Source: Tetraselmis striata (Eukaryota; Chlorophyta; Chlorodendrophyceae; Chlorodendrales; Chlorodendraceae). From it: a stretch of DNA of 64,000 bases. Under the pieces are notes generated by a model. The model made no database searches. It worked only from the letters and a program-made list of their open reading frames with translations, and had not been told where the DNA came from. Positions 11,610 to 54,340 of the stretch are shown here, one piece after another. The stretch spans positions 19,935 to 83,934 of the forward strand of contig VCJN01002565.1 in NCBI GenBank assembly GCA_006384855.1. The letters run 5' to 3'. The translations under genes and the position numbers were made by a program. How positions within the stretch are numbered: the first letter of the stretch is position 1; each line of letters begins with the position of its first letter.

Positions 11610-11718
11610 TGTCGAAGTAACTGAGTCATGCTTTGTACGAATATACTAAATGACACAGTAGTCAATGCAGAGTAAATATCGGCGTGCCCCTTGAGGGCAG
11701 GACTTGAACTGACACATA

Positions 11719-11794
<76 letters not shown>

Positions 11795-12204
11795 CAGTCA
11801 GTATTATATATCACACAGACATTCATGATACAGTCAAGCAGGAAGCTAATGACAATTGTTCAGCAAACGGACAATCAGACAATGATACAACCTTGTTGCA
11901 GCAAAATCTCATGAGCTTACATGTGATGTGATACAGCCTCAAAATCTACAACCTCCAGCAATTGGAGTGTTGAGTGCATTATGCAGCAACAGCCAGCAAC
12001 GATAATATTTCTAGAATCGCTAACCGGCTAACATAGTAATCACTTCTTTGTTTCCCATCAAATCTTGCAGTCTCTACAATCACTGTGCAATCACACATGT
12101 TGTTAGTATAAAGATTTATTAGGTAATGGGCCCTCTCACTGAGAGCTTCCTTCTTCCGACTCCTTCTCTACCACCTATGATCTACACACACATGCTCACC
12201 TGTA
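11610..12204 (+). mobile_element. copia LTR plus leader fragment
   Basis: The LTR spans 11610-12118 in sense orientation, starting TGTCGAAGTAACTGAGT. It matches both LTRs of the copia element at 42028-50537 in inverted orientation. It is followed by the element's leader (TCTCACTGAGAGC) to ~12204, where similarity stops. The fragment is therefore a 5' LTR with a truncated internal region, not a clean solo LTR. It contains an (AT)n expansion absent from the other LTRs. It abuts the end of the inverted-repeat arm. Confidence 0.85.
11725..11792. repeat. (AT)n microsatellite inside LTR
   Basis: About 34 uninterrupted AT units lie inside the copia LTR copy. The other two LTRs have only short AT-rich stretches at this place, so the expansion arose after insertion. 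Confidence 0.95.
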
Positions 12205-30064: not shown

Positions 30065-32083
30065 ATGCGTGATCGTGAGCATAGCATGACGCCGAACGCG
30101 CCTGTCCGAACGCGCCTGTTGTGCATCATAGGTCCACCTCTGATCTTGCAGTCTGACAACGGGAGGGGGTTCCTCAACCTTGTTGCACGCAGTGGCTCTA
30201 ACAATGGTAACATGGCTGTAGCAGTGGCTCAGTCTATCATCGTTTCGCCCGATAACAGTGGCTGTAACAATGTTACTGACTTTGCGCACATGCCCCTGCT
30301 CGTCTTGTTGGTACAGGTTTTACTGATGCTCAAGGCCAAGCTGCAGGTGCCGGTGCCTGCCTTGGTAACAGCCCAAGCAATGGCGGCAGCGAGCGTTTCA
30401 ACCGCACCATTGAAGAGAAGGTGCGCCTCTTCTGTTGTGAGCACAACACACCAAACTGGCCGGTGGCGGCTCACCTGGTAGCATGGCAGTACAACACCAG
30501 CTTTCGCTCAGCCATCCAGCATGGCGACATGCGCGCCCCATTCATGATTGTATATGCCGCATATAATATTTCGAATGCCAACCACTGATATGCTGTCTGA
30601 TGTGCAGGTGCCGTATGTTGCAGTCTTTGGTCAGGTGCCGCGTGTAGGCCTGCAATCCCTGCGCCTTAGCGATGACCTGGCCAACTCGCTGACCACGGAG
30701 GCGGACCTCAATGCTGCACTGGGCTTGCCGTAAGACAAGGCCATCGATGATGACAGCCCCGCTGCATCTGAGCCGAGGGCAGAGGATGCAGCAGCCCCGC
30801 CCACCGATGGCTAACCAGGTGCGACATGCGCACCCCATTCAGGAATAGAAATGCCGTATGTAATGTTTGGAATGCGTTCTACTGATATATTGTTTTATGC
30901 GCAGGTGGCGCAGGTCAACCTCAGGCGCCGGGGCGGGTGGCACCGCGGGAGTGCAGCCCTGGCCCTGGCCACAAGGAAGATTGGAACCCATTGACATCCA
31001 TTGTTGCGTGCAAAGTTTATGTGGCTGGTGGAGTGTGTGTGATAGGCCAGAGGATACCTACGGAAGAGCCTCTGAAGGGGCACCAATGCAAGGGATGCGG
31101 GATGCTCTACCACAACATCTGCACAGGTAATACAGGTGCCATTCCCCCATGTCCGTGCAAATGTATATATTGTGAATGCAGACTGACACAATTCATGTGC
31201 GCGCAGGAGGGACAGAGGAGGGCTACTGCAGCGAGCAGTGCCCCTCTATAGGGCTCAGCTGGCAAGGGGACTTCTTCGCCCCAGCTCTGCAAGACCCGGC
31301 GGAGCAGCCGCATGATAACGGTGGCACCGCAGAAGGCCAACATCATGTGACACATGTTGTACGCAAGCGCCCTCTCGACCCTGTAGGCTCTCCTGAAGAT
31401 GCAGCTGTGACGCCCTTTAGGCGGAGCGTTTGCCAGGCATGCGGTGTTGCTCAGGCCAAACGAGCTGGCCCCATGGCGGCAGCTGTGGCACGGCGGTTCG
31501 GCCCTGCGCCTGAGGTTGGCGACACTGTGCAAGTTGCTGTCCCTGGTGTGGATCGTGGGAAGGTTGATGCAACGACATTCACATTGGTTATCATTGAGGT
31601 GAGGAGCAGACTGTATGAATTTTGCCTCTGTTGGCCGCACATCACACCTGCAGTAGGTATATTTGTACGCCGGTGCCTTTAATGAATTAGTGAGCTTCCA
31701 CCCCATTGTTGTGTTGCCAGGTCACCGCCAAGGGCATGTACCGCCTGGCAAACCTGGCTGGCGTTGTGAACAGATGTTACGGTCAGTCAGACCTTGCTCC
31801 CATGAGGTCAGTGACCCCAGCACAGCTGGGACTGCAAGGGGTGGTTGACAAGTGGAGAGATCCAGGGAGTTGGAAGAAAGTCTCGCTCCGGGCCGCTGTT
31901 AGATCGGTGTCCCTCCATGGCGGGCAAGGTATGATTAATTGCAGTTGCAAGGGGCCATGCAAAACCAACGCATGTGCCTGCCGAAAAGCAAGGCGAAAGT
32001 GCAACTCTAGATGCCACAACGGCAACGCCACTTGCGTGAATTTGTATGACGCAGGTGCGTCCACCAGTGGGGGAAATGTGTAG
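30065..32083 (+). CDS. Ginger-like transposase (integrase core, Zn motif, CXC tail), exons
   Basis: In order: ILQSDNGRGFLN near 30140 (integrase motif with the second catalytic Asp); SPSNGGSERFNRTIEEK near 30375-30430 (catalytic Glu region); YVAVFGQVPRVGLQSL near 30615; and a Zn-binding block (HQCKGCGMLYHNIC then GYCSEQC, 31080-31240). Then come RRFGPAPEVGDTVQVAVPGVD (~31490-31560) and a CXC cluster (CSCKGPCKTNACACRKARRKC, ~31940-32000). This order matches Ginger/KRBA2-type proteins, in which the protein cuts and pastes the element. Coding is split by introns. Parts lie in different frames, and one intron donor near 30526 has lost its GT. An Ala-rich frame at 29713-29867 (MADLAEAAAFASES) may be a 5' exon. 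The first catalytic Asp was not found. A C run (30009-30034) sits in the missing region. Confidence 0.75.
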
Positions 32084-42027: not shown

Positions 42028-42478
42028 TGTAATTTCAGACTAACAAAGCAACAGGTGTGATTGCACAGTGACAGTAGAGACTGTAAGGTTTGGTGGGAAA
42101 CAAAGAAGTGATTACAATGCTAGTAGCGATTCTAGAAATATTATAGTTACTGGCTATTGCTGCATCTCACGCTCTCAGCACTCCAATTGCTGGAGGGTTG
42201 TATATTGTAAGGCTGTATCACAGCACATGTAAGCTCATGAGATTTTGCTGCAACAAGGCTGTATCATTGTCTGATTGTGCCTTTGTTGAACAATTGTCAT
42301 TAGTTTCCTGCTTGACTGTATCATACATGTCTGTTTAATAAACAATTGAAACGATAAATATTTATTATGTGTCAGTTCAGGTCCTGCCCTGAACAAGGGG
42401 CACGCCGTTATTTGTTCTGCACTGACTACTGTGTCATTTTAGTACATTCGTACAGATAATGACTCAGGTACTTCGACC
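42028..42478 (-). repeat. copia 3' LTR
   Basis: 451 bp. Its outer sequence TAGTAGCGATTCTAGAAATA is shared with the other two LTR copies. The conserved first base pair TG of the sense LTR is changed to GG. Confidence 0.85.
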
Positions 42479-42549: not shown

Positions 42550-45500
42550 TCAGAGCTTATTCACCACATTCATAACCCTGGTCGACAGTGCCTCAAACTG
42601 AGGATTGCTGACCGGCTTGGTGAAGATATCAGCAAGCATAGAGCTGCTGGGCGCGTAGTAGATCTCGATGATGCCATCCCTGTGGGCGGTCGCGCACAAA
42701 GTGTTGGCGAATATCCAGGTGTTTGGCGCGGCTGGATGTGCTGCCCGCTGTCGCAATAGCAATGCATGCCTGGTTGTTTTCTGCAATGGGGGTTGGCAGT
42801 GTTTGCGGGAACCCTAACTCCCCCATCATTTGACGCGGGAACTTGGCCTCTTATTGAGTAGCCAAACTGATGAGCGCAAGGTATTCAGCCTCAGCTGTGG
42901 AGAGGGTTACCAGGGGCTGCAGTTTGGAGGCATAACTGACAGCTGCGCCGCACAGGAAGAAAACGTAGCCGCTGGTGGCTTTGCAGCTACTGCGATAAGT
43001 GGTCGGGTGGTTGGCGTCACTGCACCCACAAAGATTGAGCGTGCTTCCCCCAATAAAGGTGCGACCTTGACCATGTGTACGGCTGAGGTAGCGCAGGCAG
43101 ATTCTGGCGTCCTCTAGATGCGCACGAGTAGGAGTGCACATAAACCCAGTGATACAATTGGTTGACTGTCTGGGTGATGTCTGGTCGTGTAGCAACTGAT
43201 GCATAGAGTAATGCACCCGCGAGACTGCGGTGGTGTAAAGCAATATCGTTGTTCAGCGGTGGTGACTGCGGGGGTCGTTGGCGGATGTTGGCAGTCGTGC
43301 GGTGGGCTTGCAGTTGTCCACCCCGTAGCGCTGAAGTAGGTCCTTCATATACTGACTCTGATGAATGGTGATGGTGCGTGCTGACAGGTTGCGTTCAACG
43401 GCCATGCCCAGCAGCCATCTGCAAGTCCCGAGATCCCCGAGAGCAGATTTGAAGTCGGCAATCCAGGTGGGTGGCGTGCTGCAGATCAGGATGCCGTCGA
43501 CAGCATAGACAGCAATGACGCTGAATATCTAGTTCACGGTGTTATCAGTGCTGCGATAGACATATGCGCCAGGGTCGGCTCAGAGTTGGATACAGCCTTG
43601 GCTGCGCAAGAAGTTGAAGAGTAGAATCCACCAGTTGTGGGGTGCCTGCTTAAGCCCATATATTGCCGCCTTGAGAAGGCAAACCAGGCGCGTGCCGTCC
43701 TTGCCGCGCTGAACAAACCCATCTGGCTGATCCATATGGATTTCCTCCTCAAGGTTTGCATAGAGGAAAGCACAGTCAACATCAGCTTGCTCGCAATATG
43801 GAGGCCAAGGAGGGCAACAAGGCTGAAGATGACGCGGAGAGTGGTGAACTTGACGGTAGGTGCGAAGGTCTCCGTGCAGTCCAGCCCTTGTACATGGGAA
43901 AATCCCCTGTGCACACAGGCGCGCCTTGTACCGTGCAGTGCTGCCATCAGCATGGTGCTTAGTTTTGAAAACCCATTTGCATTTGACTGTCTTTCTGCCA
44001 GCAGGAAGAGTGACGAGCTCCCGTGTGACGCGGCTGATGCGGGAATCATAGTCGGCTTGGATAGCGAGTTGCCATTCGGCAGCATGAGGTGAGGCGGGGG
44101 CCTCCCTGTAGGTCTGCGGGTCACCGTCCCGGGGATTCGCCTGCTACCAGTCCAGCCGGCGGCTGATATCCGCGTGAGGGGAACACATTGTCTGAAGCAG
44201 GAATTCTGACATTTGGTGTGATGCTGCGGCGCGGTCATGGAGCTGGTTCCAATTGTTGTTGGCAGTGGTATCGCTGATCAGTGCTTCAGGCTGGCCGGCA
44301 CGAGACGACACATGCTGCTGGTTGGCTACAGTACCGGCGCATGCCTCAGACTGGCTGCTCGGGTCAGCTGCGGTGGTGGATGTTGAGGTCGGAATCGGCT
44401 GCATCGGAATGGGCTGGCTAACAACGGGATCACTTGTCGATTGTTGGGGCTATTGAATAGCTGATGATGCAGCTGGGGTTGTCGGACTAGGTATAGGCTG
44501 AAGGGGAGCTTGCTGAGCAGGTTCTATCGGTGGCGGTGTGTGTCGTCGTTGCTGAGGGGCGATCGGGCAGCACTGCAGGTTCTCGTCATCATTATCAGAA
44601 GAGTCGCTGTCCGAGGGATGGATAGGCTGCCCCTCCTGAGGTTAGTGCCCCTCCCCAGCTGGCTGCCCCTGTTGAAGTGATGTATCTCCTGTACCTGCTG
44701 AGGAAGAGCTGTCACGCCCCTCCCGAGTGGCTGCATGCCACTCGTCAGGCAGCTTTGGATCAAATCGTCCGAGTCGATCAGACTCGTTTAAGGCCATAAC
44801 ACTGCGACTGGACACCACCATTCGAGTGACATCCATTGTTTCCAGCCACGCTGGTAAATCATGTTAGTATCCCTCGAAGTTGCCTTCATGTGAAGATGCT
44901 GCAATCTTGTTGCGATTGGCGTGGGGGACGTACACATAGGCTGGGCAGCCAAATGTCCGAAGGTAGGAGAGGTACGGTGTAACTACGCCAGTGAGGCGAC
45001 GCAGTGGGATGTCGCTGATACCACGACGGAAGGTGTGCGATTATGTATATGCACAGCGGTAGCCATGGCAAATTCCCCAACTTCGGCACCGAGGCCAGCG
45101 TAGTCCAGCATGCACCAGGCCCAGGTAGTAGCTAGGGTATTATCCCAAGTGCGCTCAATTACACCCTTCTGGAATTGACTTTAGGGCGCGGCGTATTTCC
45201 GACGGGTTGGCGATTCATCCGTTGCGAATATGCACTCAGCGCTACGAAATGCGTTGCCGTTGTCAAGGCGCAGCGTTTCTAAGTGATAACCCAGGGCTGA
45301 AGCCATGGTGCGGTACGCTTTGAAGCAATTAGTGGAGGCTGCGCGAGAACGGCAGGTGTAGAGCGCCACGACTGACGTGGCATAGCCGATGGCTCCGCAT
45401 GAGTTAACATTGCCTTGCAACGATGTGACGTGATTCTGACAGAAATTCCAGCCAGGGCGTTGAAATAGCTGTGTGGGCTTGACGTGCATGCCTCTAGGAC

Positions 45501-46110
45501 GTGGGGCGGCAGTTGATTTGACGAGGGCGCACGTCCGGCAGAACGGCAGAGCGGGTCCGGCAGGAAGGATGCTCACGCCGCTGCGGGTAAGTGATGCCGT
45601 ACCACGCCCGCGGATGTGCCCGAGACGAGCATGCCAGAGTTGGCGAGTTAGGTGTAGGCGATGTCATGTTAGCGAATAAAAGAGCAGTGGATGGAGCCAT
45701 AAGGGTATGGCGGCGAGGCTTGGGCTGGATGATGTGGGAGGAAAGGGTTCGTAGGGGCCGGTGTGTCAGGATGGGAACAACGGTTCTGTCGGGCAATAGG
45801 AGCCGAGGGTCGGTAGCTTGTAGAATAATCTCGAGACCGGCATTGACATTGGCCGCTGCTGAATAGCCGCCGTTTGTCATTGTTGATCTTGGCAGCAAGG
45901 TCGGGGACATGCAGTGCTGAAGACTAATGCGCACTGGTGTCCCTGTGTTATCCTGCAGGTAGAGGTAGGCGTTGCCTTCCCCGACTGCGTATGCGTGGAG
46001 GCCTTTGATCCAGCGGCATGGAATGGTGCGGTACTCAGCGAAGTCGAAAAGTTGCGCGGTCATGTGTGTAGTCGCGCCTGTGTCAGACACCCACATGTCT
46101 GAAAATGACT
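42550..46110 (-). pseudogene. decayed copia pol: protease, integrase, RT, RNase H
   Basis: The protease is at ~46100-46050, with the aspartic motif WVSDTGATTHMT. The integrase region at 45576-45181 has an HHCC remnant (CRTCALVKS) and LETLRLDNGNAF. The RT region at ~44240-43480 has GFSHVQGLDCTETFAPTVKF. Where copia RT has its YVDD box there is YAVDGILI, so the catalytic site appears lost. RNase H and the C terminus at ~43240-42550 show CGCSDANHPTTYRS, LSTAEAEYLAL, KHLDIRQHFVRD and LADIFTKP. Frames change several times, and an internal stop near 45181 and others break the polyprotein. This copy cannot be autonomous as it stands. Confidence 0.85.
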
Positions 46111-46149
46111 GAATGCTGATGTCTTCTGAGTGGGCGACAAGCAGATGGA

Positions 46150-47080
46150 GTAATGGCAGACACAAGCCATCGACAGATGTTGGAGTCCACGTAAGCGCCC
46201 AGCAGGCGACGGCGCCGAGTGTCTTCTGACAAGGTAGAATGTTGCAGCATGCTGACGGGATAACCCATAGCGATAGCCCAAATATCACAGCATGGTTAAG
46301 TCAACTCCCCGCAGAGTATGAGCATATCGCTCCAAGGGCCATCAGGATGGATGACACGGTATGCATAGCTGCCGCGTCGAGAGACAAACTTCGGGAAGAT
46401 ACTGTCTTGCAAATGTGGTGGCGCCGTCCAGGCACGCAGGTGAGAAGCCCTACTGCTTGAGGAGGTCACCGACTGGTGGTGGGCGGCAAAGGGAGGACTG
46501 AAAGTGTTGCTGAAGGGTATCGGTGTCAAGGATGTTGGTCGATAGTAAGGTATTCCGACGAGCCGACGAGCCGAGTTCGTGGGCACGGGCAAGGAATGGA
46601 TCCCCAAGAGCAGCGCGCAGTTCGGGGAATCGCGCCGCCCCAGGGTGCATTGGCAATGATATAGTTCAGCACCCCGGATTGTAGTTTCATTGGCGAGCGG
46701 GGCGATGATGTCACACACAGCATAGAAGGGCTTGGCGTCCGGGTCGCGAAGTCCATGTTGCAGTCCGGCAGTAGAGAAGGGATTGCATGGTGGAGTAGCG
46801 ATGACTAGATCGACATACGGAAGTTGGGCGAGATCCGCGCCGGTGATGGACATGATGTCTTGAGGAAGCCGCTTGTACTGCAGACGGTGGAAGCGTGTCA
46901 GGTGATGAAAAGGACAGCTTCAGAAGCTCCATTATGTCCATGGCGGCACGTGCAGTCTCGTCGGAGTCCACCAAGGGAAGTATGCCAATAGGCAGGCCGG
47001 CCGCTGCAATGTGCCTGATGAACCCTGGCACAGCGCCAGAACAAAGGAGCAGGATATGAAGTGGCGCCGGTGTTTAAAGT
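46150..47080 (-). pseudogene. retrotransposon-borne cytosine-5 DNA methyltransferase domain
   Basis: About 310 codons on the minus strand hold the C5-methyltransferase motif series in order. Motif I is ILLLCSGAVPGFIRHIAAAG with VDSDETARAAM. Motif IV is LVIATPPCNPFSTAGL, with the Pro-Cys nucleophile. Motif VI is NYIIANAP, where the usual Glu of ENV is Ala. The motif VIII region is HELGSSARRNTLLSTN. A motif IX-like part is FPKFVSRRGSYAYR, and motif X is WAIAMGYP followed by RRRRLLGAYVDSNICRWLV. The enzyme class methylates cytosine in DNA. The parts occupy different frames (changes near 46910, 46660 and 46300), so this copy is broken. The end lies ~50 bp from the protease, consistent with a polyprotein domain. 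Confidence 0.85.
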
Positions 47081-48752
47081 AGACGCTAAAGGCTGGATGT
47101 GGAGCACTGGCGGGAGTGGTGCCGGTCCAGATTCAGTGGCGTGTAGAGCTGTGTCCTCAGTGGCGATGAGTGCGCTATTAGTATAAGGACTGGATGTGGG
47201 AGTTGTGGTGACGCGTTGGCGGTCAGCAGCTTTGGCAATGTTCCAATCAGAAGCGGCAAGGGGCTTTTGGCGGACTTCCGCAAAGACTGCGCGGCGGAAT
47301 GACTGCATAATTGGCCAGCAAGGGTCCATGGGGCGCTGTGACGGTCCAGCGCGCTGAAGGGCGCGATAGAGCTGCATCAAATCAGTCTGATTGTTGTGGT
47401 GGATGCAGGGTATGTTGTGGAAACCATACGTGACAAGCCGCCTCGTAAGAGCGTTGCCATGCAAATCACGGTGAATGACCCTGTGGCAGCGCAGCCGGGT
47501 GTCGCGGATATGAAACGCAGAGAGGTCAGGGATGCGTGTGCTGTCGGGAACAGCGGCAAAGTTGCTGAGCTCCGCCTGAAAGGCTCCGTGCCACTCATGC
47601 TGGGCAGGAGCATGGACAGGAACACGGCGCCACTTGCCGCAGGCAATGCTGCCATCAGCCCGGCGAGGGATGTAGTTGATGAGGCGAGTGGCTGGTCGAG
47701 ATGGAGGTGGAGTGAAGTCCGGCAGATCCCAAAGGTGAGCCGCAATTGCAGCAGTGAATGCAGCATGGCAGACAGGTAGTAGCGGCGCGGTGGCGAGCGG
47801 AGCGCATACGGCGGCGGTTGCGACGCTGGTATGTGGTATCGCGAAGCCGTGCGCCACGAGGCACGTGCGTTGTGTTGATGGGCTCCAGCGCCACGTGAGT
47901 CAGGTCGATGCGGGGTTGGTAGGCATCGAGGTCTGCAGTAGAGGACTTGTCGTTGTCATCTGGCGAGGCGGCGACATAGAGAATGCAGTACCGAGAGCCT
48001 CGATTGTTGATAGGCATGGCAACGACCCGCAGTTTGACTTGCCGCTAGAAGTACGCCATCTCCGCATCGTAGCTGCGCTGACGGGCGGCAGCCTGTGCCG
48101 GGGATGCTTGGAAGGGGTCCGCAGGGCGATTGAACGGAGGCTGGATGAGAAGCGACTGCTGGGGGAAGATCATGGACGGAGGAAGAGGTGCCTCGGCCGG
48201 CTTAATCGCAGAGGGCGAGGTACAGCGAATGAAGTGAAGGACGGAGTCCTCATACTCCTTCCCGTGTGCGTTTGCATCCGCCTCTATCACGGCGGTGGCA
48301 GCAAGGTCACACGCGAGGTCGGCCTAGTCGAAGGCCATCTGAGCAGCCGTGATGTCCGCAGGGTAGAGTGACGACAGCTGGCGCGCACTCGGGCAACCAA
48401 TAAGCGGGACACGCAAGTTGAAGCTTGTTGATGGGCGACGCTAGCAGTGTCGGCGCGGAGCTGAGCGGCCATGGCATCGACACCGTTCATCTCAACCGCC
48501 AAAGTAGCCATAGCGATGGATGGCTGAGATTCGGTGTGTGGCGATAGGTGAAGAGAAAGAGTGGGCTGCACAGGCGCGGCGGAATGAAGGTGGCGCTCAT
48601 CAGTCATGTCGCCGCAGATGTCGTCATTGGTGTCGGAGCACTCGCCGGATGACTCGGAGGTGAAGTTGTCGAAGAAGGTATCAGCAGTGGCAACGCTGCT
48701 GTCTTCGCATTTAGAGTTGACTGGCTTCTCGTCTTGTGCTACCATGGATGGC
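47080..48752 (-). other. unassigned coding-like segment upstream of methyltransferase
   Basis: A long minus-strand frame (~47857-47080) contains HEWHGAFQAELSNFAAVPD and IRDTRLRCHRVIHRDLHGNAL, with further frames to 48752 (MPINNRGSRYCILYVAASPD near 48017). An acidic region is present (SSGECSDTNDDICGDMTDE). No family is recognised. Its position between gag and the methyltransferase suggests it entered with, or serves, the methyltransferase. It could be a target-recognition or reader region, which is speculation. Confidence 0.5.
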
Positions 48753-49741
48753 CTATGGGACGGTGCCACCAGCTGAGGGCTCGGGGGCAGGTGTAGTAGA
48801 ATTGTTGCCGGCAACCACGGCGGTCACGCTTCCTCCTGGGCGCTCCCTACGCTTGATGTCGAGCTTCCTCTTGAAACAGTCGTAGTCCATGGTGTGGCCA
48901 CGCTTGTCGCAGTACTTGCGGATGGGTACGTCTCCATGTGGGCGTGACGGCGGTGGCGGGGCATTGGCCAACGCGCGACGGAAGAGTCCATGCTCTCCAT
49001 GTTGGTGCTCAGCATCTTCAGGGTAAACAGGATGGCAGCGTTGGAGTTGATGGCGACATTTGAAGAGTTGTCGGCTGCAAACGTTGAGGTAGGTTGATCA
49101 GCGGGCTCCGGGTCCACCGTAAGCATTGAGTCCCTGACATGTTGGACAGCGGCATCAAGGGTGGTAGCAGTGACAACTCTCGTAGAAAGTATCTGCGCAA
49201 CGGTTCGGAACTCATCGCGAAGGCCCTTGATGAACGCGATGACTAGCGTGGACTCATCAGGCGCCTTGTCCATGCACTCCAGCTCTCTACGCACCGGGTT
49301 AAGACGGTTATCGTAATCCGTGAGGTCCTCGGTTGTCTTCATTCGCATGTGTAGCGCCTCATTACAGGTCTGAGCACGAAAGCGAGGTGACTGTAGAAGG
49401 GTGGCGAGAAGTGCGTCGATCGCTTTACGACCACGCACTACGGGGTCGGTGTTGTTGGTGAAGCGGAGAAGCTCGGTTCCGGCTTGCTTGTCCGGAACGA
49501 TCTGGTTGAGGATAGACATGAAGGTAGCATGATGTTGTGGGCTGGTATCAATAGTCCAGAGCTCATCAAAGCCCGGCTTGGAACTGACATCCGCCTTGAC
49601 TGGCAGCCACCCGACCAAAGTGCCATTGGCCTCCTTGGCATTGTGGAGAGGAAGGTGTTTGAAGCCCTTGATGCGAAGAGAGACCACAGAGGAGTCCTCG
49701 TCGGCAGGCATGCTGACAGCTGATTTGAGCAGCTGGAGCAA
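48753..49741 (-). pseudogene. copia gag
   Basis: It encodes a copia-type capsid region (ECMDKAPDESTLVIAFIKGL, DSMLTVDPEPADQP), normally the particle-forming protein. A remnant of a CCHC knuckle (YCDKRGHTMDYDC) lies in another frame (48971-48800), so a frameshift near 48970 separates capsid from nucleocapsid. The first Cys of the knuckle is not visible. Confidence 0.75.
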
Positions 49742-50085: not shown

Positions 50086-50537
50086 TGAATGTTCAGACTA
50101 ACAACAGGTGTGATTGCACAGTGACAGTAGAGACTGTAAGGTTTGGTGGGAAACAAAGAAGTGATTACAATGCTAGTAGCGATTCTAGAAATAGTATAGT
50201 TACTGGCTATTGCTGCATCTCACGCTCACAGCGCTCCAATGGCTGGAGAGCTGTAGATTCTAAGGCTGTATCACAGCACATGGAAGCTCATGAGATTTTG
50301 CTGCAACAAGGCTGTATCATTCTCTGCTTGTGCCCTTGTTGAACAATTGTCATTAGTTTCCGGCTTGACTGTATCATACACGTCTTTGTTAATGTATATA
50401 TAATCCTGCGATGTATGTTGATTCTGCTGTGTCAGTTCAGGTCCTGCCCGCCTGAAAGGGCACGCCGATATTTACTTTGCATTGACTACGGTGTCATTCA
50501 GTACATTCGTACAAAGCATTACTCAGTTACTTCGACA
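50086..50537 (-). repeat. copia 5' LTR
   Basis: 452 bp, ending (on the plus strand) CTTCGACA at 50537. The leader with TCTCACTGAGAGC lies immediately inside. It is the best preserved of the three LTRs in the window. Confidence 0.88.
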
Positions 50538-51269
50538 TAGATAGGCACATGTCGTCTCCCCACCCATCCGCTGCCTGGGTGGACCCGACGACCGTCCTCG
50601 GCCCTCTGATTTGCGAGCCCCCCGTCCGCCTCCACCCCCGGATGGGGATGGGGGCAGGGATCGTGCACGGGTTGCACCTTGGTAGCCTTGGATCCGCCCG
50701 TGCTGTCACTGCCGCAGAGGAGCAGTGCGAGCTGGACACCGGCGTCCAATGCCGTTGCTGGTCCGGTCAACTCGTTCGCTGTTCGTTGAGCACCCTCTCC
50801 CTTCCTGTCCTGTCGGCGCCTCCACATCACATTCGGCCTAGTGCCGCTATTGGAGTGGTTCGGGATGTTGTGCTGGGAGGGAGTTCTACGTTCGGCGGAA
50901 GGGGACGCGACCGAGCTGCCGGCGGATCTGGCGCTGGGAGGCCCGCGTCGGTTACCCGCCCGTGGCGGCCCGTTCTGGGTTGAACCCCCCCACTTTCGCT
51001 CCTTGCTGCGAGACCTCTTCGAAGCCCCTCTTCGAAGCCCCTTTCCTGTCGGCGCCTCCACATCACGTTCGGCCTAGTGCCACAATTGGGACTATGTGCT
51101 GGGGTGAGCGTCCCTACTGCGTGGAGCGGCGGCTGGCGGGTGGCGATGCCTGGTCGGTAGCTGCCATGGCGGTTCCCCCCTCTGGAAGCTTTAGCTGGAT
51201 TTCCTTCTGGATTTCGTTCTGGATCTCTGTATGGATATCTTGATTGTCCATTTAGCACATGTAATCTTA
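50538..51269. other. spacer with a short direct repeat
   Basis: No gene is recognised. A ~45-bp segment containing GTCGGCGCCTCCACATCAC occurs at ~50812 and ~51045 in direct orientation. Short CTTCGAAGCCCC and GGATTTC tandem units are nearby. Confidence 0.6.
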
Positions 51270-53250
51270 CGCACATCGCACTCACATCACATATAGTCGC
51301 CACGAGTTGACGAGAAGCCTGCGGCGGGCCTCCCATCGCGGTTGATGAGACACGCAATCTCGCGAGTATGCGAAATATAGACGGATACATATAGGAATGA
51401 CTGCTTAGTAATTGGGGATAGTAGTGTTGACGATAATGAGCGCGTCACGCCTCTCAACGCGGGCCTCTGGTTGCACCTCACCCCCCCCTCCCCCCCCCCC
51501 CCCCCCCCCCCAACACACACACACACCCACAACCACCCACTCGTAGCGTTCACTACGAGGGACCACCGAGGTGAGTGGTTCGGTTTTGATACGGACACTG
51601 GTACAGATAGGAGACGGTCGCCCGCGCCTTGTTGCCGCCCTAAATTGCTGGCGACCGGCATGCACCTGCTACCGCCCGAAGATGATGCACGCGCCGCAGC
51701 CATTAGCAGATGGCACAGTATACGACATCATCGCGAAACCCTCGCGAATCGGTAGGGCTTATCGTCTTAATTTCGGGATGCTCTGACGTCTGCATTTCCG
51801 GTATTTCACGGCCCCGCGGCCCGGTCTCACCCACAGCAGCAGACAGACGGCGGTACAGGGTAACGTTTTTAGTTTAGTTATAGTTGTAGTTCGCATGCCG
51901 ACGATGGTCCAGTGCCGAGCCGCCCCCGTTCCCACCATCCCCGTGTCTTCTACCAGGCCCCCGTCCTACACATATTCGTTGGTTTGGCGCTTGCCACAGC
52001 AACTGCTAGCCTTCGCAAGTCCACTTTGTACTACACCGACTGATCCAGGACGTTGTTTTCAGCAGCAGCAATACCCTGCCTCGCTGCGGTGTGTTGATCC
52101 CAGAATAGCGACTGTGCCGCCTGAGGCCGAGCGTACGTTGTTTCACTGTCACCTTCACCGACCGCGCGACAATGGGTGGCTGCGTGTCTACAACCCACGG
52201 CAACTCGGTAAGTCTGTCTCTCCCCTCGCTTCCATCCCCCCCGCCCGCCCTCTTTGTCTTTGGTCGCACCGCGCGCGGTCGGCCTAGATATGCTGTCTTG
52301 TGCACATGCCGTTGTGCACCTGCGCCGACCTCGAAGCCCTCTCCGCTCACAACGGCATCCCACGCAAGATCCCTAAATTGAGCTTGTTGTACCGTGGTAT
52401 TGTCACCTTCTCTAGAACAACCGCGCGGTCTTATATAGCGGCGGCAGCGGTCTGTGTAGTCTACCGTATCTACCGTCGTTACTGAATGCCGCCGCGGACG
52501 GTATACCCCGCATGCCGCTTTGGGCCGCGCCATACGAGTTGGAGAAACTCGGGGTTTGGACAAATTCAATGATGTGACAAGGGAATTAGGGAACAGTCAC
52601 GACCCCCCGAGATCACGGGGCCACCAGCTTGATCCCGAACATGCGAATAGAAGACAAGCGTTGTGTCATACCGTACCGTTTTTGGCAAACTTCAAGCCTT
52701 GGCCGGGCCGAGGCCAGCCGGGGGGGGATTCTGGGTCGGCGTGTGCAACCCTGGGGCTCCTCCTGCCTGATCCTGTGCTGATGTCTTTCGTCCTGCCATC
52801 CAAACACACGCCTCAGACAGTCATATCGGCGCAGCCGGATAGCACCCAGCTACCACCTGAACTAGGGTGCTTCAATCGTAACGGTGTTTACTTCCCCTTT
52901 TCCCAGGCTGCTATCAGTGCTTGTGGCATGTGGCTTGGGATTGCAAGAAAGAGCCACGGTTTTATAGCTATGTTATAGCTATGTCTGGTCTAGGGCATCA
53001 GCATCTCGTACTGCTCTCGCTGCATATGCGTGAGGAAACTATCTCAAAGTTTTGGTACTAGCAGAGCAGTTTCCTAAGTAGTACACTGCTGTCATCTCCG
53101 ACAGTATTCATACTATCACACTAGGCAGCAAAGTAGCCTCAGTAAATGTACTTTGGCCATGCTGGGATCATGTATGCCCCCTGGGGCTGCTACACGCGGA
53201 TATCCGCTTCCAGAAACGTTTGCTGACTTCTTGCTTGTGACATTTCCCAG
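51270..53250. other. upstream region of right NLR gene
   Basis: Conserved with the left arm (8881-11609). It includes a C run (~51488-51510) and the candidate 5' exon starting MSFVLPSKHTPQTV at 52781. There is no recognised domain, and the true gene start is unresolved. Confidence 0.45.
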
Positions 53251-54340
53251 GCTGCCATCCAACCAGGCCCACCGCCGGCCCAGGCCGCCGCACCTGAAGG
53301 CCCTCTGCCGCCATCAGCGCAACCCACCGTGACACCGCCTGCCGAGGACGAAGCACCGGGTGCCGCAGATGCCGTCCTGGTCCCCACTGCCGCTCCAGCA
53401 GCGGTGAGTTGGTGCATCACCTGACCGCTCATGAGCCGACACTTCTTTTGCCCAAAGGGGACATTCTCCCTCCGGCTGTGGCATGCTTGAGTTCGCATCT
53501 TGGTGGTTTGCTGACTTTTTGTGCCGTTCCGTGCTTGTGGTTGGCATGAACCCCTCAAGGCTGCCATCCAACCAGGCCCACCGCCGGTACCGGCCGCCGC
53601 ACCTGAAGGCCCTCTGCCGCCATCAGCGCAACCCACCGTGACACCGCCTGCCGAGGACGAAGCACCGGCTGCCGCAGATGCCGTCCTGGTCCCCACTGCC
53701 GCTCCAGAAGCGGTGAGTTGGTACATCACCTGACCGCTCATGAGCCGACACTTCTTTTGCCCAAAGGGGACATTCTCCCTGCGGCTGTGGCATGCTCGTG
53801 TGCGCGTCCTGATGGTTCGCTGACTGTTTGTGCCGTTCCGTGCTTGTGGTTGGCACGAACCCCTCAAGGCTGCCGTCCAAGCAAGCCCACCGCCGGTCCA
53901 GGCTGCTGCACCTGAAGGCCCTCTGCCGCCATCAGCGCAACCCACCGTGACACCGCCCGCGAAGGATGAAGGACCAACCGCTGCAGATGCCGTCCTGGTC
54001 CCCACTGCCGCTCCAGAAGCGGTGAGTTGGTGCATTACTTGAGCTGACCGCTCATGAGCCAACACGACACTCGTTTTGCTCAAAGCGGACATTTTCCTTC
54101 CGCCTTTGGCATGCTCAAGATCGCATCCTGGTGGTTTGCTGACTGTTTGTGCCAATCTGTGCTTGCGGCCGGCATGATCCCCTCAAGGCTGCCATCCAAG
54201 CAAGCCCACCGCCCATCCAGGCCGCCGCACTTGAAGGCCCTCTGCTGCCATCAGCGCAACCCATCGTGACACCACGTGCGGAGGACGAAGGACCAACCGC
54301 CGCAAAGGCTGTGTTGGTCCCCACTGCCGCTCCTACATCG
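53251..54340 (+). repeat. four tandem 153-bp Pro/Ala-rich exons (right NLR gene)
   Basis: Exons 53251-53403, 53560-53712, 53869-54021 and 54188-54340 are each exactly 153 bp. They have AG acceptors and GTGAG donors and are in phase 0. They encode PEGPLPPSAQP, TVTPPAEDEA and ADAVLVPTAAPE variants. The copy number equals that of the left arm. Confidence 0.8.

Follow-up and report, generated by a model that had tools for sequence, protein, structure and literature searches.

The window, which is the whole stretch of 64,000 nucleotides of Tetraselmis striata DNA analysed here, carries a Ty1/copia element on its minus strand, with two long terminal repeats (LTRs), an integrase upstream of the reverse transcriptase (RT), and an RT of the RVT_2 type (Table 1). 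A C5-cytosine methyltransferase (MTase) lies between gag and protease at 46086-47073, in four pieces and in more than one frame. A model's interpretation of the letters, made without database searches (the sequence-only reading), had placed such an enzyme between the gag and protease of a copia element with both LTRs, and this was borne out in each part. The Pfam profile search that it proposed gave a PF00145 match above the cut-off, profile A3 matched all four pieces, gag and the Pol_BBD region lie on either side, and both LTRs are present.

Table 1. Features of the copia element in the window, from left to right. Profile A3 was built from an alignment of related MTases from which the window sequence was excluded; its E-values for the pieces come from a search of a handful of frames.
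Feature	Position	Strand	Support
3' LTR (left copy)	42034..42478	-	392/439 aligned positions identical to right copy (89%)
pol C-terminal end, RNase H by position	42568..43252	-	tblastn match of L009 (to residue 2287) stops at 42568
Reverse transcriptase (RVT_2), two frames	43256..44143	-	PF07727 E 4.8e-21 at 43583-44143, above cut-off
Pre-integrase domain and integrase	45034..45645	-	PF13976 E 1.2e-4, 22.2 bits, below cut-off of 28.4, in 45184-45663
Protease / Pol_BBD region (VSDTGATTHM)	45843..46117	-	Pol_BBD E 0.0011, 19.6 bits, below cut-off of 27, in ORF 45497-46300
MTase piece 4, motifs IX-X	46086..46295	-	A3 E 4.9e-14, model 291-342
MTase piece 2, motif IV (VIATPPCNPFSTAG) and part of C-terminal half, second frame	46299..46919	-	PF00145 E 1.5e-7, 31.6 bits, cut-off 22; A3 E 8e-30, model 90-284
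MTase piece 3, after motif VI through motif VIII, first frame	46453..46665	-	A3 E 1.4e-20, model 168-230
MTase piece 1, motif I region, first frame	46714..47073	-	A3 E 2.5e-9, model 25-92; no Pfam match
Long linker from gag to MTase, no recognised domain	47074..48826	-	Pfam search empty
gag (copia-type) open frame, 308 aa	48827..49750	-	PF14223 E 7.7e-4, 19.4 bits, below cut-off of 27
5' LTR (right copy)	50091..50538	-	Pairs with left copy, 392/439 identical

Several Pfam matches along the element did not reach their cut-offs, which is what a decayed copy would show, while RVT_2 and PF00145 exceeded theirs. The second RT frame (43256-43528) matched PF07727 below the cut-off (E 2.4e-4), and no Pfam match was found at the pol end (42854-43252) or in the linker stretches 46901-47899 and 48290-48823. 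The linker counterpart in the intact relative L009 (residues about 301-790) is also without a Pfam domain. L009 further supported the protease side, where its residues 1129-1311 aligned at 46117-45590 by tblastn, and the integrase region, which matched its residues 1292-1493 with 47% identity. In a larger protein set, MTase piece 2 was matched with an E-value of 1.3e-28 (93 bits). No target-site duplication could be read at the window copy. When the genome was searched with the right LTR, 47 matches were found in 39 candidate regions, the window's own among them. Fragments of a related LTR also lie at window positions 11610-12107 (C2068:31544-31650 and 31721-32041, minus strand).

The sequence-only reading had listed motifs I, IV, VI, VIII, IX and X in order. 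Motifs I, IV, VIII and IX/X are indeed present in order, spread over frames, but motif VI is ruined: the window, read by eye, has IIANAPWGGA (third frame, ORF 46526-46804) where the relatives have IIENVPGA. Judged by its sequence, the window copy is dead and cannot encode a working MTase, because the domain is split over several frames and motif VI is not intact.

The MTase was far from confined to this copy. A genome search with the L009 MTase gave at least 123 matches (120 scored of 497 candidates), the weakest with an E-value of 1.2e-20. After the pieces of one domain were merged, we counted at least 112 or so MTase segments in the same 120 of 497 candidates, a count of related MTases rather than of copia settings confirmed segment by segment. 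Among the matches listed, identities to the L009 MTase fell into three groups of at least 75%, about 41-55%, and 33-39%. The second, a mixed group, took in L023, frames of 2147 aa, and most of the window's subfamily, and the third took in the 2164-aa frame of contig C193. A search with PF00145 brought in an additional group (L018/L019/L031).

The sequence-only reading had advised a hunt for other copies with an intact gag-MTase-pol frame, and several were found. Intact relatives from several subfamilies had open frames of 2147-2483 aa, which run from the gag zinc knuckle through the MTase to the RT. In the single open frames of L009, L016, L023, and L029, the order was zinc knuckle, linker, MTase, Pol_BBD, pre-integrase, integrase, SH3, and RVT_2. 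Some of these domains scored below the Pfam cut-off, namely the integrase in L009 and L016, the zinc knuckle and pre-integrase in L023, and PF00145 (18.7 bits), the zinc knuckle and pre-integrase in L029, where RVT_2 was strong (E 4.4e-68). For each of the seven RT rows in 2147-aa frames, the contig also had an MTase row whose frame was 2147 aa long. Three copies (L014, L020, and L024) shared an in-frame deletion of about L009 residues 1628-2118. They lack RVT_2 and retain the zinc knuckle, MTase, Pol_BBD, and integrase in one frame, together with the C-terminal end, RNase H by position. Two Tetraselmis proteins were nearly identical to copies found here: the T. striata gene model P0002 (jgi/Tetstr1) differed from L016 at 2 of 1171 residues in the longest match, and P0001 differed from L017 at 1 of 570, which points to T. 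striata or a close relative as the host.

The MTase-bearing relatives are recent insertions, as judged from their LTRs and target duplications. LTR pairs were found in 14 of the 16 loci examined, with identities of 98.1-100% (six at 100%; for L009, L010, and L029 the analysed stretch ends within the LTRs), and the two loci with no LTR-like pair were L018 and the LINE L013. The LTRs of L020, one of the RT-deleted copies, were identical over 470 bp. By eye, 5-bp target duplications were seen in six of seven copies inspected (L011, L016, L017, L019, L020, and L022), and none was readable in L014. The relatives showed motif I, PC in motif IV, ENV in motif VI, motif VIII, and motif X in order, and the motif IV cysteine and motif VI ENV were kept in all 18 proteins tested (17 copia, 1 LINE). 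Motif IV was unusual in L030 (PCCEP) and L029 (PPCAP). The MTase is kept in young relatives with intact frames in this genome, and it therefore looks like a functional component of the element and not an accident.

A copia family without the MTase was also abundant, its 1561-aa frame accounting for 45 of 150 scored RVT_2 rows by our own count. None of six such frames tested matched the MTase profile at an E-value of 10. This MTase-less family is at least as successful, which weighs against the self-methylation model proposed below.

Purifying selection on the MTase was evident when more distant copies were compared. The three most informative pairs set RT-bearing against RT-deleted lineages, and in them the MTase dN/dS was 0.21 (L009/L020), 0.18 (L011/L020), and 0.22 (L016/L024), with 0.10-0.20 for gag and 0.67-0.83 for the linker. 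L018/L019 gave 0.30 for the MTase vs 0.73 for the linker. The linker may evolve fast for reasons of its own, which would weaken this contrast. Two distant pairs near saturation had MTase values of 0.25 (L009/L023) and 0.27 (L009/L029). The nearest pairs, with few changes, did not show such selection (L009/L010, 1.01; L009/L014, 0.84; L020/L024, 0.76), and further near pairs gave 0.56 (L009/L016) and 0.40 (L009/L021). Neither did the window's own, older subfamily, whose MTase dN/dS of 0.49-0.81 is as expected of decaying copies. For L011/L020, dS was 0.19 in the MTase vs 0.06-0.07 in gag, linker, protease, and integrase and 0.03 in RNase H, and L014 looked mosaic by window counts. Both observations hint at an exchange of segments.

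In its family profile, the retrotransposon MTase resembles DNMT3. Among solved structures (PDB), the best match of the family profile was DNMT3A (E 1.8e-11, 173 positions), and the rows for DNMT2 covered 75-120 positions. The single L009 domain matched HaeIII best and also DNMT2 (E 4e-4) and HhaI, with no DNMT3 among its matches, and the MTase of the LINE L013 matched DNMT3A over 187 residues (E 0.0011). Since the family profile prefers DNMT3A while the single L009 domain prefers HaeIII, we call the enzyme DNMT3-like and leave membership of the DNMT3 family aside.

Strong relatives in protein databases (E < 1e-40) were Tetraselmis gene models and ENA proteins, the next row of one search having an E-value of 8e-11. 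A Gypsy-type protein of ENA source (P0004) carried a relative at 3e-32. The L013 query added LINE-like proteins from ENA, a Gypsy-type protein from jgi (E 2e-37), and Gypsy-type proteins of Cymbomonas tetramitiformis (E 6e-17 to 1e-11). We built an MTase tree of 35 rows, rooted on six general MTases taken as a bacterial outgroup (part of them named). Ten copia rows grouped together (93/93), as did 14 LINE-labelled rows (97/96), some of which are short MTase-only proteins assigned by similarity. The Gypsy-type P0004 fell beside copia (99/97), and four Gypsy rows lay at the base (100/99). On a long branch, the window piece fell within the copia group with L009, L020, L023, L029, and P0003 (97/89). 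An unrooted RT tree of nine copia rows agreed with the MTase tree in its two main groups. The MTase-less L032 was placed between them, which implies either one gain followed by a loss or two gains.

L013 (G000:C2687) is LINE-like, with an open stretch of 2731 aa that contains RVT_1, a PCIF1-like domain, a related C5-MTase, and RNase H. Similar LINE-like elements were found at C596, C2172, and C653. All seven ENA relatives (P0121-P0127) combined PCIF1, RVT_1, and MTase, with RNase H in four and a PHD finger in two. PCIF1 is the methyltransferase that forms m6Am next to the mRNA cap. A single MTase lineage may have passed among copia, Gypsy, and LINE elements in green algae and been kept as a shared tool of retrotransposition, and its LINE branch may edit its own RNA and DNA. 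We hold this wider reading tentatively, at a little under even odds. If it were true, LINEs with C5-MTase-like and PCIF1-like m6Am domains, sometimes with a PHD finger, may be elements that edit both kinds of their own nucleic acid.

Other sources and other MTases in the genome were set apart from this family. A scan of IMG/VR with alignment A3 showed that at least 112 places encode a relative. The best listed had an E-value of 4e-10 over 78 positions, and the matches listed were mostly short, around motifs IV-VI, with no close viral home for the MTase among them. A bacterial-type C5-MTase of 323-325 aa (L001-L006, L008, and L028) does not belong to the retrotransposon family and scored 14 bits with its profile in the three tested. 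It is carried by a repeat of about 3 kb, whose main alignments among L001-L006 and L008 are about 95-99% identical, and Pfam found no domain in four neighbouring frames. MTases beside virus-like genes (L007 and L025) were also outside the family, with no match to its profile at an E-value of 10. The L007/L027 locus (G000:C2385) is a virus-like stretch with a C5-MTase and an RNA polymerase large-subunit gene that bears an intein domain, and it also encodes a protein whose Cas12f1-like TNB match did not reach the cut-off. At L025 (G000:C2009), the C5-MTase lies beside a DUF4942 protein with a methyltransferase domain and a primase-helicase-like protein with DnaG zinc finger, Toprim, and AAA_25 domains, in a cluster that is virus- or phage-like.

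We propose, with a probability of about 0.6, that the window element is a decayed copy from a copia lineage with an ancient, in-frame DNMT3-like MTase in its Gag-Pol that methylates new cDNA or new insertions. Such a lineage would long ago have gained the enzyme in frame, between the linker that follows the zinc knuckle and the protease. The element's protease would free the MTase inside the virus-like particle, where it would be packaged together with the RT. Its target on the new cDNA, or on the insertion just made, would be a short site that probably contains CG, and a copy methylated in this way might reach the nucleus with a host-like mark. Self-methylation of element cDNA, through which the sequence-only reading had suggested that such an element may hide from or exploit host silencing, is plausible. 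A methylated copy could evade the sensing of unmethylated foreign DNA, could be shielded from nucleases or from deamination, or could have its own expression kept in check, and the data favour none of these benefits over the others.

No CpG footprint specific to the MTase was found when CpG content and transitions were compared between MTase-bearing and MTase-less copia, since neither measure was more altered in the MTase-bearing copies. CpG observed/expected was 0.81-0.96 in the coding sequence of MTase-bearing copia and 0.80 for the MTase-less L032; two other stretches of the window gave 0.87-0.92, and the window's element as a whole gave 0.84. The window's right LTR had a value of 0.59, for which the comparison held no MTase-less counterpart. 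Transitions at CpG, relative to other C/G positions, were in 1.67-fold excess in eight MTase-bearing copies (39/7678 vs 69/22705; two further pairs had too few changes to compare) and in 2.63-fold excess in six MTase-less copies (13/3942 vs 16/12756). CpG methylation may exist in this genome.

The missing footprint is one of several points in favour of an RNA substrate. The MTase might act on element RNA or primer tRNA, for example by stabilising or marking the packaged genomic RNA, rather than on cDNA. It lies towards Gag from the protease, in the part of the polyprotein that has RNA-binding functions, its LINE relatives join it to a PCIF1-like domain, and the L009 domain on its own matches the tRNA enzyme DNMT2 and no DNMT3. 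RNA methylation has also been raised for SymbioLINE (de Mendoza et al. 2018, PMC5890265). The family profile, however, favours DNMT3A, which acts on DNA, over a longer alignment than any DNMT2 row, and we consider an RNA role unlikely. An MTase that marks new copies for silencing, in a truce between host and element, or that attacks rival mobile DNA or viruses would also be compatible with purifying selection and with related MTases in three kinds of retrotransposon, and such roles are discussed by de Mendoza et al. (PMC5890265) and Morozov (2019). But the MTase does not stop spread, because young copies have identical LTRs, and we regard this role as rather improbable.

A PF00145 match that arose by chance, or through shared motifs in a protein without the methyltransferase fold, is very improbable. 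Pfam covers about 50-80 of 324 positions in the copia rows examined, and L029 scored below the cut-off, but motifs I, IV, VI, VIII, and X follow one order when copia, LINE, and Gypsy elements are aligned, and the LINE L013 matches DNMT3A over 187 residues, albeit at an E-value of 0.0011.

That a host gene fragment landed by chance in the window copy alone, the outcome that the sequence-only reading had named as fatal to its claim, is scarcely credible. The window MTase is broken over several frames, and LTR pairs 4-5 kb apart at C2552 and C1114 showed no MTase match, but these short pairs may be deletion derivatives. The whole window MTase segment was found in four further copies of the same subfamily (C2711, C2544, C551, and C1047) at 89-93% DNA identity, with related LTRs flanking it on both sides on the same contigs. 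At C551 and C1047 the LTRs are about 8 kb apart with the MTase between them, as in the window, and the C551 copy (L118) has a single open frame across model positions 6-340 of 347 (E 7.6e-91). Other subfamilies hold the MTase in open gag-pol frames. The persistence of the MTase in other copies, with the frame intact in several of them, rules out a single chance insertion.

The capture of DNMTs by LINE, DIRS, and Gypsy retrotransposons has been known since 2018. The sequence-only reading had referred to this study (de Mendoza et al. 2018, PMC5890265) and named its hosts correctly, although none of the elements described there is copia: the dinoflagellates have LINE and DIRS elements, and the charophyte has Gypsy. 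Symbiodinium Copia elements are described there as lacking any DNMT domain. Like the copia elements here, KnitGypsy-Dnmt3 of Klebsormidium nitens is an intronless LTR element with a DNMT3-type domain (DNMT3-like here) in its polyprotein, and purifying selection was seen in both (Ka/Ks < 0.2 there; dN/dS of 0.18-0.22 in three pairs here). KnitGypsy-Dnmt3, however, is a Gypsy element with the domain in its Pol ORF, whereas the Tetraselmis elements are Ty1/copia in a chlorophyte, with the integrase before the RT and the domain between gag and protease. SymbioDIRS-Dnmt3 and SymbioLINE-Dnmt of Symbiodinium also carry DNMTs within retrotransposon ORFs in many copies, but are DIRS (with a tyrosine recombinase) and LINE elements rather than copia, and the SymbioDIRS-Dnmt3 enzymes can methylate CG (PMC5890265). 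The traits of these systems, a DNMT in the coding frame, many copies, and purifying selection, recur in Tetraselmis, except for selection in the nearest pairs and the window's subfamily.

One sentence in a 2025 paper (PMC12344493) mentions some DNMT3 embedded in LTR Copia and DIRS elements of streptophytes and dinoflagellates, and its main text does not name Tetraselmis. Because the paper cites the 2018 study, which reports Gypsy, "Copia" may be a slip. Hoguin et al. 2023 (PMC9998398) found that none of the green algae in MMETSP had a DNMT3. The Gypsy-type proteins of Cymbomonas tetramitiformis (P0129-P0131) and the ENA protein P0004 resemble the elements here in having a related MTase in a retrotransposon polyprotein, but differ from copia in their RVT_1, and P0004, P0130, and P0131 also have a PHD finger. 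Across the main texts and abstracts searched, no copia element with a DNMT in Tetraselmis and no LINE with PCIF1 were found. Within this literature, the chlorophyte copia setting, the abundance and youth of the copies, the place before the protease, and the relatives in Gypsy elements and PCIF1-bearing LINEs are new. Our results extend DNMT capture by retrotransposons to chlorophyte copia, in large numbers and in young copies. MTase-bearing and MTase-less copia in one genome offer a natural comparison for asking what a retrotransposon gains from carrying an enzyme of the kind that hosts use for silencing.

Two further observations concern the arrangement of repeats. A tandem repeat with a period of 309 bases occupies window positions 53249-54000, its later copies being 88-97% identical to the first in the stretches compared. 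Copia RT rows, many of them in the MTase-less 1561-aa frame, cluster several per contig on contigs such as C440, C805, C1776, C1230, C1435, and C776, which are perhaps centromere-like regions.
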